Below are positions 1 to 38,957 of a stretch of 38,957 nucleotides of DNA, one piece after another. Made by a program: the position numbers and the translations under genes. The notes beneath the pieces were generated by a model that saw nothing but the letters and a program-made list of their open reading frames with translations, was not told where the DNA came from and searched no databases. The first letter of the stretch is position 1; the number at the start of each line of letters is the position of its first letter. Source of the stretch: an uncultured Mediterraneibacter sp. (GTDB lineage: Bacteria; Bacillota; Clostridia; Lachnospirales; Lachnospiraceae); NCBI GenBank assembly GCA_944384505.1, contig CALWTQ010000034.1:1-38957 (forward strand). The letters run 5' to 3'.

Positions 1-216
1 GGGTTTCCACCTGCCAAACATTACGCCCTCTCTGAGCGCACGAGCGAGTTGCCCGGAGCGCCGCTTTGCACTTAAACATCTCTTCGGCCTGTTAGATTTT
101 CCGGATTCTGGAACGGAACATCGCACGGCTGTCCCCTTTCACAGAATACGTATCGCAAACCATCCGCTCCGCTTCCGGACGTAAGTCACAGGAAATGTTA
201 GTGCGCTAAATAGCTG
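1..216 (+). repeat. Giant palindromic repeat, copy A (right half only)
   Basis: From about position 35 to 216 the sequence matches the right half of the large repeat seen complete at 1172-1930: the apical motif GAGCGAGTTGCCCGGAGC, the arm with AACATCTCTTCGGCC, and the terminal GCGCTAAATAGCTG. The first 34 bases do not match the left arm of the other copies, so the breakpoint lies at the apex of the third hairpin. The copy may be a half-element or a recombinant, or it may continue differently to the left of the window. It ends 8 bp before the stop codon of the DUF5131 gene. Confidence 0.8.
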
Positions 217-1171: not shown

Positions 1172-1930
1172 CAGCTATAAAGTTCACTAACGTCCTTTTG
1201 CAAAACGTCCGAAAACAACTCCTTTGCCAAGACGTATTCTGCGGGGATGGAGGACGGCGACGGGCTTCGCTCCAGGGGATAAGGGAAACTAGGAAGTTCC
1301 GGCCACGGATTAAAAGCAGGGACAGACGGAGAGCAACTCGCTTCGCTCGGACAAATCTCTCCGTCTGCCCCAACATCCGTAACCGGAACTTCTAGTTTCA
1401 CTAATCTCCTTCCGAAGGCGCCCATCGCCATCCTCCATCCCCGCAGAATCTTTCTCGAAATGGGGCTGTTTTCTGGGCTTTTCAATCCGGAAGTTAGTGA
1501 ATATATAGCTGCTACAAGCAGCAGGCGCGGCCGGAAGACTTTCGCAATGGTAAGCCTCCAAGCCGCGCCAGTTGTGCGTTTCAGCCTATTTGGGCAATGA
1601 CATTCCGACAGGGAACACGCAGGAAGCGGAGCGGATAGTTTGAGTATACTTTCTGGGGAAGGGGACAGCCGGGAGATGTGACTTTGGAGGAATCCGCTGA
1701 AAATCTTGAAGGGCGGAGAGATGTTGTTAAGCGGCGCGCAGGGATTGTCTGAGCAGAGCGAGTTGCCCGGAGCGCCGCTTTGCCCTTAAACATCTCTTCG
1801 GCCTGTTAGATTTTCCGGATTCTGGAACGGAACATCGCACGGCTGTCCCCTTTCACAGAATACGTATCGCAAACCATCCGCTCCGCTTCCGGACGTAAGT
1901 CACAGGAAATGTTAATGCGCTAAATAGCTG
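1172..1930 (+). repeat. Giant palindromic repeat, copy B (full length, 759 bp)
   Basis: The copy starts CAGCTATAAAGTTCACTAAC and ends GTTAATGCGCTAAATAGCTG, which are imperfect terminal inverted repeats. It has three parts. Hairpin 1 (1172-1510) pairs for example the GGGGATGGAGGACGG segment near 1240 with CCATCCTCCATCCCC near 1430, and 1285-1310 with 1376-1400. Hairpin 2 (about 1520-1570) pairs GGCGCGG with CCGCGCC. Hairpin 3 (about 1580-1930) pairs GGGGACAGCCG at 1661-1671 with CGGCTGTCCCC at 1840-1850. The apices carry CAACTCGCTTCGCTC and GAGCAGAGCGAGTTG, near reverse complements of each other. Open frames inside are by-products of palindromic, stop-poor sequence and resemble no protein. The element may be mobile or a structured RNA. 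Confidence 0.9.
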
Positions 1931-10506: not shown

Positions 10507-11265
10507 CAGCTATAAAGTTCACTAACGTCCTTTTGCAAAACGTCCGAAAACAGTACCTTTGCCAAGATGTATTCTGCGGGGATGGAGGACGGCTCAGGGC
10601 TTCGCTCCAGGGGATAAGTGAAACTAAAAGCTGCGGCGACAGACTAAGTACAAGGACTGCCGGTGGACAACTCGCTTCGCTCAGACAATTCCACCGTCAG
10701 CCCTAACGTCTGTCACCGCAGCTTTAACTTTCACTAATCCCCTTTCGAAGGCGCCCGTCGCCATCCTCCATCCCCGCAGAATTTTTCTCGAAATGAGGCT
10801 GTTTTCTGGGCTTTTCGAGCCGGAAGTTAATGAATATATAGGCTGCCACAAGAAGCAGGCGCGGCCGGAAGACTTTCTCAGCCAAAACCCCTCAAGCCGC
10901 GCCAGTTGTACGTTTCAGTCTGTTTAGGGCAATAACACTTCCGTCTAGAAAAGTGTAGGAAGCGGAGCGGATGTTTGAAACGTAAGTTCTTGGAGAGGGG
11001 CGTGTGGGGACTGTGACTTTGGAGGAATCGGATGGAAGATCTTAGAAGTCGGAGAGCTGTTGTTAAGCGGCGCGCAGGGATTGTCTGAGCGTAGCGAGTT
11101 GCCCTGCACGCCGCTTTGCACTTAAACAGCTCTTCGACTTCTTAGATCCTTCCCGGATTCCGGAACGGAACAGTACACACACGCCCCTCTCCAAGAACAC
11201 GTTTCAAACATTCGCTCCGCTTCCGGACGTATTTTGGCGGAAATTGTTATTGCGCTAAATAGCTG
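10507..11265 (+). repeat. Giant palindromic repeat, copy C (full length, 759 bp)
   Basis: Same length and architecture as copy B. It begins CAGCTATAAAGTTCACTAAC (with CAGTA just before it, as in copy E) and ends GCGCTAAATAGCTG. The mid-stem of hairpin 1 (about 10621-10645 with 10707-10732, AAAGCTGCGG with CCGCAGCTTT) differs in sequence from copy B but is equally well paired. In hairpin 3, AGAGGGGCGTGTG (10994-11006) pairs with CACACGCCCCTCT (11178-11190), again unlike copy B. A single-base compensatory pair is C11057-G11129, against A1721-T1793 in B. It ends 5 bp before the stop of the GyrI-like gene. Confidence 0.9.
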
Positions 11266-19436: not shown

Positions 19437-19552
19437 GTGTCCGGAAGCGGAGCGGATGTCTAAAACGTACAACTGGCGCGGCTTGAGGGCTTTCCTCTGC
19501 AGAAGCCTTCCGGCCGCGCCTGTTTCTTGCAGCAGGTATATATATTGACAAC
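19436..19552 (-). repeat. Giant palindromic repeat, copy G (inverted relic)
   Basis: The only copy in reverse orientation. GTCCGGAAGCGGAGCGGATG (end of hairpin 3) is joined, apparently at a short GAAACGT-like repeat, to the central hairpin (TGGCGCGGCTTGAGG...CCGGCCGCGCC), then to GCAGGTATATATATTGACAAC, the equivalent of the internal GCAGCTATATATTCACTAAC end of hairpin 1. Most of both long hairpins is gone. Its right edge forms the -35 box of the next tetR gene. Confidence 0.75.
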
Positions 19553-33810: not shown

Positions 33811-34276
33811 AAATCATAAGTTCAATAATGTTCGAATGCAAAACGTTCGAAAACAGGGGCTATTTCTGAGAAGTATTCTGCGGAGATGAAGGATGGCTCT
33901 GGATTCCGCTCCAGTTCTACGTTTCAGCCTGTTTAGAGTAATAACACTTCCCTCTGGAAATGCGCAGGAAGCGGAGGGGATGTTTGAAGCGTAAGTTCTT
34001 GGAGAGGAGACGTGTGGGGACTGTGACTTTGGAGGAATCTGATGGAAGATATTAGAAGTCGGAGAGCTGTTGTTAAGCGGCGCGCAGGGATTGCCTGAGC
34101 GGAGCGAGTTGCCCGGAGCGCCGCTTTGTATTTAAACATCTCTTCGGCCTGCTAGATTTTCCGGATTCTGGAACGGAACATCGCACGGCTGTCCCGTTTC
34201 ACAGAATACGTATCGCAAACCATCCGCTCCGCTTCCGGACGTGAGTCATAGGAAATGTTAGTGCGCTAAATAGCTG
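33811..34276 (+). repeat. Giant palindromic repeat, copy D (internally deleted chimera)
   Basis: Hairpin 1 starts like copy F (ATGCAAAACGTTCGAAAACA) and is cut after CGCTCCAG, joining at a shared CCAG to the TTCTACGTTTCAG that follows the central hairpin, so hairpin 1's second arm and hairpin 2 are missing. Hairpin 3 has a left arm of the copy C type (GGAGAGCTGTTGTTAAGCGG) but a right arm of the copy B type (AAACATCTCTTCGGCC, CACGGCTGTCCC), so the arms pair less well. The end, TAGCTGAACTGTTA, mirrors the CAGTACAGCTAT start of copies C and E. It lies between kdgK and kdgT. Confidence 0.85.
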
Positions 34277-35603: not shown

Positions 35604-35858
35604 CAGCTATAAAGTTCAATAACTCCCTACTTGTAGAAACGTCCGAAAACAACACCTTTACAGAAACGTATTCTGCGGGGATGGAGCTGTTTTCTGGGCT
35701 TTTCATTTCGGGAGTCAGTGACTATATAGCTGCCAGAAGTGTGGCGCGGCTGGAATAAATTTCCCAGCCGAAAGCCCTCACGCCGCGCCAGTTGCGCTTT
35801 ACAGCCTATTTAGACAGTAACATTTCCGACAGGAGATGCGCAGGAAGCGGAGCGGATG
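35604..35858 (+). repeat. Giant palindromic repeat, copy E (truncated)
   Basis: Starts CAGTACAGCTATAAAGTTC like copy C. The two arms of hairpin 1 are joined near the base (the outer part ATTCTGCGGGGATGG runs straight into GCTGTTTTCTGGGCTTTTC), so the apex is lost. The central hairpin is complete (GTGGCGCGGCTGG with CCAGCCG...CGCCGCGCC). Hairpin 3 stops after GGAAGCGGAGCGGATG, where unrelated sequence begins. Confidence 0.85.
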
Positions 35859-38880: not shown

Positions 38881-38957
38881 CAGCTATAAAGTTCACTAAA
38901 GTCCGGATGCAAAACGTTCGAAAACAGGGGCTATTTCTGAGACGTATTCTGCGGAGA
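38881..38957 (+). repeat. Giant palindromic repeat, copy F (cut by window end)
   Basis: CAGCTATAAAGTTCACTAAA, then ATGCAAAACGTTCGAAAACA and ACGTATTCTGCGGAGA, the first 77 bp of hairpin 1. It is nearer to copy D than to B or C in this part. Its length and state beyond the window cannot be judged. Confidence 0.85.

Follow-up and report, generated by a model that had tools for sequence, protein, structure and literature searches.

A mobile, lineage-specific palindrome of palindromes with a strand-specific hairpin core in Mediterraneibacter

Miniature inverted-repeat transposable elements (MITEs) and foldback elements are non-autonomous, carry terminal inverted repeats and show internal deletions. 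The palindrome-associated elements of IS200/IS605 (PATE) are hairpin-based, are found without target-site duplications (TSDs) and depend on a Y1 enzyme. REPINs, as portrayed in one account, are inverted doublets of repetitive extragenic palindromic (REP) sequences that show compensatory changes, occur in hundreds of intergenic copies and are moved by the RAYT transposase (PMC3116915). REPs are given there and in related work as sequences of 21-65 nt (PMC6006769), and the 16-mers of a REPIN as standing about 71-110 bp apart (PMC3116915, PMC6006769). Bacterial interspersed mosaic elements (BIMEs) are described as mosaics of palindromic modules in alternating orientation, present in more than 100 copies (PMC2817692), and the families in a survey of bacterial stem-loop repeats are reported to measure mostly 31-200 bp (PMC2267715). 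Here we analyze a 759-bp intergenic element made of two long hairpins, which was recognized in a contig of an uncultured Mediterraneibacter sp. (CALWTQ010000034.1; the whole stretch of 38,957 nucleotides is referred to below as the window). The element is real, mobile and lineage-specific, and from its features we infer a mechanism of transfer. No earlier description of it was met in searches of an open-access library, the coverage of which extends neither to subscription journals nor to ISfinder.

The three-part build proposed in an earlier, sequence-only reading of the window, with two long hairpins around a short GC-rich one, is borne out by the full copy that we take as reference:

1172..1930, plus strand: full-length element, reference copy, 759 bp (sequence comparison, genome matches)
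1172..1511, core reading on the minus strand: left long hairpin, element positions 1-340 (consensus fold -192.6 kcal/mol on minus versus -176.6 kcal/mol on plus)
1333..1356, minus strand: apical core of the left hairpin, variant ATTTGTCCGA followed by the GCGAAGC tip and GAGTTGC (sequence, motif set)
1512..1576, no strand assigned: centre with the short GC-rich hairpin, element positions 341-405, about 65 bp (fold; 23 shared pairs)
1577..1930, core on the plus strand: right long hairpin, element positions 406-759, about 354 bp (consensus fold -185.4 on plus versus -165.4 on minus)
1743..1766, plus strand: apical core of the right hairpin, GATTGTCTGA..GAGTTGC (sequence, pattern counts)

A consensus of 759 bases was derived from 38 full copies, gathered from 40 stretches of the genome and the window, with a mean pairwise identity of 85% (76-98%). 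The left and right long hairpins are homologous when read on opposite strands; the unit is thus a palindrome of palindromes. Its ends form terminal inverted repeats (CAGCTATAAAGTTC / GCGCTAAATAGCTG or GAACTTTATAGCTG), as had been noticed from the window. Both strands of the reference copy fold far better than shuffled sequences, with -392 kcal/mol on the plus strand (mean of 20 shuffles -250, z -16.6) and -398.8 kcal/mol on the minus strand (z -30.1, 20 shuffles). The element holds no convincing open reading frame (ORF), in agreement with the initial impression that it encodes no protein, and the ORFs called mechanically there run through the hairpin arms.

The strand-specific hairpin core, which occurs throughout the genus as well as in a second genus of Lachnospiraceae, is new here. 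One core lies in each long hairpin and consists of ATTGTCTGA, a mini-hairpin and GAGTTG, together with an interior loop. Its layout across the genus is GTTAA-stem-GATTGTYTGA-(2-3 bp tip)-GAGTTGC-stem-TTTGYNTTTA, with the stems rewritten. The tip varies in matched pairs (GC..GC, GT..AC, AC..GT, CC..GG, GGC..GCC) and mostly surrounds a GAA-like triloop. An unusually stable DNA mini-hairpin is d(GCGAAGC), and this stability may be read as a hint, no more, towards single-stranded DNA (ssDNA). Covariation was assessed on 46 divergent cores (no more than 8 per genome, with a similarity below 85% inside a genome) drawn from the 168 that were found. Their RNAalifold consensus has 34 pairs; two or more Watson-Crick types occur at 32 of these, and three or more at 23. 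The 1,562 cells of this set, read on the core strand, contain 108 G-T, 23 A-C and 85 other mismatches, G-T lying above A-C at 23 pairs and below it at four, whereas controls with slid pairing yield 226-261 G-T against 122-205 A-C (1.2-2.1:1). The wobble excess is not universal: genome G029 shows five G-T and five A-C, and the single BRZHT core none and two, respectively.

Compensation is also evident within the genome: at the 196 pairs on which the folds of the two strands agree, double changes are compensated in 279 cells and uncompensated in 27, and once the pairing is slid by 1-3 columns only 19-47 compensated changes are left. When both hairpins are pooled, strand preference is absent from the one-sided changes (137 G-T, 192 A-C). 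As written on the plus strand, the left hairpin has 135 A-C against 80 G-T and the right one 145 G-T against 93 A-C. The left consensus folds better on the minus strand and the right one on the plus strand, so that the bias in one-sided changes and the folding energy both favor the core-bearing strand in each hairpin. Because the stems covary heavily and wobble pairs favor the core strand, a folded single strand, either RNA or ssDNA, appears to be selected. The suggestion that the repeat is a large structured RNA stays undecided, as the wobble asymmetry and the conserved loops point to selection on one folded strand and ssDNA would fit too.

The cores pair divergently and at a fixed spacing. 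In the fetched loci, all 55 core pairs less than 700 bp apart (from genomes G000, G020, G033, G042, G056 and G057) are divergent, and their tips are separated by 408-422 bp in 54 cases and by 533 bp in the other; lone cores also occur there (63 others). The hairpins of G029, about 370 bp long, possess termini of another type (AAATCTGAGTTTG...CAAACTCAGATTT) than the CAGCTATTTAG-type termini of the window's genome. Since termini differ between species and the core stays, terminal sequence is free to change. Two further observations concern the surroundings of the hairpins. Upstream of those of G029 (L158-L171), further palindromes are nested as modules (AATCTCGCGATTT...AAATCGCGAGATTG), and a small hairpin (GGCGGAGTAAGC...) is inserted in some of them. 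In 4 of the 38 copies from the window's genome (L009:4298-4313, L010, L014:4274-4287 and L025), a second, outer CAGCTATTTAG-like terminus is found 14-18 bp beyond the left end.

The seven copies originally counted in the window turn out to be a large underestimate of the family. A first genome search, in which 40 of 345 candidates were scored, listed at least 134 matches. The 21-base left end, with up to three mismatches, has 232 genome matches (reversed control, 0), and the core motif has 204 (control, 1). Since the 38 full copies average 1.11 left ends and 1.47 core motifs each, the window's genome is estimated to carry about 210 elements by left ends or about 140 by cores, and these matches rule out one duplication restricted to the window. 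Many of the left ends in the list are close to a contig end (a few hundred bases at most), as expected of repeats that break assembly.

Beyond this genome, a DNA similarity search matches 22 of 58 genomes of the genus. The core pattern is positive in 32 of the 58, with one control match in all, and single-match genomes may include chance occurrences. Across the family, the exact core pattern is present in 10 of 397 genomes (334 genera), and reversed controls match three times. Only three of these genomes, G000, G044 and G171, have matches with a paired tip that look real, G171 being from another genus and holding two copies; the other seven, all single matches, have unpaired tips. One scan of named genomes returned 17 stretches, including Candidatus Mediterraneibacter vanvlietii, Ca. 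M. stercoripullorum, another Mediterraneibacter and three rabbit-gut Lachnospiraceae contigs. An exact core is also borne by a contig labelled Mucispirillum (L131), possibly a mis-binned Lachnospiraceae contig. Distant blastn against phage and plasmid collections gave no match to the element.

Comparison with related genomes provides good support for mobility. The relatives bear elements of the same build, but with sequences that differ and at sites of their own. Seven own copies could be aligned cleanly and placed against relatives:

L037:3751-4512 and L037:15243-16003
L035:2956-3358, L035:7143-7903 and L035:11393-12154
L046:3836-4596 and L046:12041-12618

Every one of them (7/7) has an empty orthologous site in at least one of G057, G033 and G056. 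At one such site the flanks are 72 bp apart in G057 versus 775 in the own genome, and the corresponding intervals of the relatives' loci L081-L085 contain no profile match. An eighth copy, at 10507 in the window, is absent from G056, but the region is rearranged there. The full copies of the window's genome have a mean identity of 85% among themselves, 83% to the single G056 copy, 76% to a G042 copy and 69% to the G057 and G033 copies. In a tree of these sequences, the copies of G057 and G033 group together, and those of G057 alone do not; rooted on a G057 copy, the tree does not render the own copies monophyletic, likely because of the single G056 copy. Many diverged copies, empty orthologous sites and the lack of a convincing ORF thus support the non-autonomous mobile element that had been suggested from the window. 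The same suggestion had extended to a foldback element or MITE, and a strict MITE is not sustained, given that TSDs are absent from 38 copies and that termini differ between species.

Two of the empty sites offer a glimpse of what occupies these positions otherwise. The site of L046:3836-4596 bears in G056 a textbook terminator directly after the stop codon instead of the element, and at that of L037:3751-4512 a terminator-like hairpin follows the stop codon in both G057 and G033. Judging from these two sites, resident copies may in addition act as modules of 3' ends. Intergenic sequence aligns poorly at the other empty sites, and therefore no terminator replacement can be claimed for them. 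In G057, the site of L046:3836-4596 carries both ends of an element of the G029 type (ATCTGAGTTTG / CAAACTCAGAT) on two contigs, L180:2061-2195 and L179 near G057:C94:22275, of which only the ends are seen.

The copies are found preferentially in the bases that immediately follow a stop codon, and the proximity to stop codons that was remarked upon in the window therefore holds statistically. The test comprised 48 copies or pieces with 400 bp on both sides, from 64 found, and mechanically called ORFs of at least 80 codons. An ORF stop lies within 12 bp of 24 of the 48, compared with 2,478 of 21,687 intergenic points (11.4%); the binomial p-value of 5e-11 is indicative, as the copies are related. 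The distance from stop to element is 0-9 in the 26 close flanks, most commonly 5 (8/26), and orientation relative to the gene shows no preference (same in 12/26). The search for target duplications in the 38 copies found none, with junction matches in five at k=2, none at k=3, one at k=4 and none at k=5-9.

The second full copy and the five pieces that had been located in the window lie within a few bases of where they were first placed:

10507..11265, plus strand: second full-length element, 759 bp (sequence comparison)
31..216, plus strand: right-hairpin fragment at the window start, element positions 577-759 (sequence comparison)
about 19458..19549, minus strand (inverted): lone centre segment, element positions about 322-415 (sequence comparison)
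about 33811..34276, plus strand: internally deleted copy, element 9-104 joined to 391-758 (sequence comparison)
about 35604..35858, plus strand: internally deleted copy, element 1-81 joined to 289-465 (sequence comparison)
about 38881..38957, plus strand: copy start, element positions 1-75, cut by the window end (sequence comparison)

The second full copy has two divergent cores with tips 412 bp apart and stands 5 bp from the stop of a 211-codon ORF on the minus strand.

We tentatively favor the explanation that these sequences are giant REPIN-like non-autonomous mobile elements, about ten times longer than REPINs and spread in trans by a hairpin-recognizing enzyme. The two long hairpins in inverted orientation would make up one transferred unit, which would reach new intergenic sites without visible target duplication. 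The enzyme would recognize the folded single strand at the core, that is, the apical ATTGTCTGA/tip/GAGTTG together with the GTTAA / TTTGYNTTTA interior loop. The folded strand would be the substrate of transfer, perhaps as ssDNA rather than RNA, and an HUH enzyme (Y1, RAYT-like) might carry the transfer out. A bolder proposal would see here a new class of mobile element, in which the folded strand of a giant-hairpin palindrome would be the transposition substrate, termini would vary by species and insertion would be aimed just after stop codons, with subfamilies re-using sites across species and perhaps replacing native terminators; this we consider less likely than not. Much the same evidence can be read in terms of a mobile structured RNA, whose core strand would be transcribed, folded and reverse-transcribed in trans, in the manner of a bacterial short interspersed nuclear element, and which might also have a cellular role. 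Wobble pairs and better folding energy track the core strand in both hairpins, interior loops and tip are conserved and target duplication is absent, all of which would suit such an RNA. Nevertheless, one transcript could not include both cores of a unit, which sit on opposite strands; the only two promoter-like sites in 1100-2000 (shuffles mean 0.7) fall outside the element, at 1122-1163, and a match to Rfam is absent. On balance we deem this scenario unlikely.

An unseen transposase that recognizes the terminal inverted repeats CAGCTATTTAGTTC...GAACTAAATAGCTG, moving the element as a MITE-like foldback, would account for termini that are conserved within the window's genome (94.5% over the first 20 bases) and for the second, outer terminus at some left ends (4/38). 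It fits poorly with 38 copies devoid of target duplication and with termini that differ between species when the internal core is kept, and no transposase element with such ends turned up in the window or the 40 stretches, which together cover about 0.4 Mb of the 3.95-Mb genome; we give it little credence. Even less probable, in our opinion, is a passive upkeep of pairing by replication template switching between the arms, with spread by ordinary recombination and no dedicated enzyme. Hairpins are reported to arise and to be preserved through template switching, which can also yield compensated changes (PMC8794818), and strand-neutral compensated changes do dominate within the genome (single-sided G-T 137, A-C 192). 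A repair process blind to strand does not account for the excess of G-T on the core strand (108:23 versus 1.2-2.1:1 when slid), however, nor does passive upkeep explain the conserved unpaired loops and the dispersal to more than 100 sites.

The search for a mobilizer of the REPIN-like element covered the Y1 transposase family across the 58 genomes of the genus, 49 of which encode Y1 transposases. The window's genome has a RAYT-like Y1 protein in single copy (L043:5765-6532, contig C50; 255 aa), whose best NCBIfam match, REP_Tyr_transpos, scores 70.6 bits, below the cut-off of 80. This protein or a relative of about 260 aa is present in 38 of the 58 genomes: 25 of 32 core-positive and 13 of 26 core-negative ones (Fisher p 0.03), or 17 of 21 and 6 of 15 among genomes at least 90% complete (p 0.017). 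Several results weigh against a REPIN-like transfer of ssDNA. The association of the RAYT-like gene with cores ignores phylogeny, and four of the nine genomes with at least 12 cores (G020, G033, G037 and G042; 75-91% complete) show no such gene. Twenty RAYT-like loci of relatives have no core or hairpin match within the fetched stretch (15 of 21 RAYT-like loci passed the ORF filter), and the nearest own copy is about 2.2 kb from the own gene. Inspection of the end alignments identified no GTAG-type guide, no dedicated search for it having been made, and the 38 flanks hold no conserved target word; they lean weakly towards AT and, on the right side, weakly towards AACTGTT. T-runs past the end of the element show no enrichment (8/26 versus 17/70), and hence simple insertion into a terminator stem is not supported. 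There is no clear replication-strand bias, since 24 of the 63 single cores are on the G-rich strand (p 0.08; 4/20 in an earlier subset), and tolerance of G-T fits RNA at least as well as ssDNA. The RAYT-like protein is a weak candidate for the mobilizer, and a candidate rather than a finding because of the four core-rich genomes without the gene and the lack of flanking cores. Two other leads were set aside. A replication-strand bias of element orientation (27/63) is not claimed. A 673-bp insert encoding an IS200-type Y1 transposase lies in the spacer of one copy (L011:1205-1878, own contig C15), with element positions 1-417 and 420-760 on either side; it is taken as incidental and not as an autonomous partner.

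At 759 bp each, the estimated 140-210 copies would amount to a few per cent of this 3.95-Mb genome of a gut commensal, and would break its assembly. The element offers a large natural covariation data set for a hairpin recognized on one strand, and with it one could test directly whether enzymes of the HUH type are able to spread structures much larger than REPs. Should resident copies indeed act as the 3' ends of genes, a mobile element would be rewriting terminators.

Set beside known systems, the element resembles the large structured RNAs of Rfam in its long conserved structure and invariant loops. Rfam yields no match at gathering score in the window or in 10 loci from relatives, and a permissive scan of 1100-2000 produces only microRNA-type hairpin models with weak scores; a group II intron was rejected on the same grounds, intron domains being absent from the gathering scans and from the permissive scan of 1100-2000. 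It differs from PATE and IS200/IS605 elements in that no fixed target tetranucleotide lies to its left (38 left flanks). With MITEs it shares terminal inverted repeats, internal deletions and a non-autonomous nature, but it has no target duplication in 38 copies and conserves its core, not its ends, across species. Like BIMEs, it is made of palindromic modules in alternating orientation and exceeds 100 copies, and it departs from them in module size and in that its modules form one fixed divergent pair, not arrays. The likeness to REPINs encompasses many intergenic copies, an inverted doublet as unit, compensatory changes, a strand-specific hairpin motif and the lack of an own gene. As opposed to REPINs, its hairpins measure about 340-350 bp each, with tips about 410 bp apart; GT[AG]G at the hairpin foot is not conserved in the element-end alignments, on inspection and with no dedicated search, and the RAYT-like gene is not flanked by its hairpins. 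Given these differences in size, guide tetranucleotide and RAYT neighbourhood, the element would work like a REPIN without being one.
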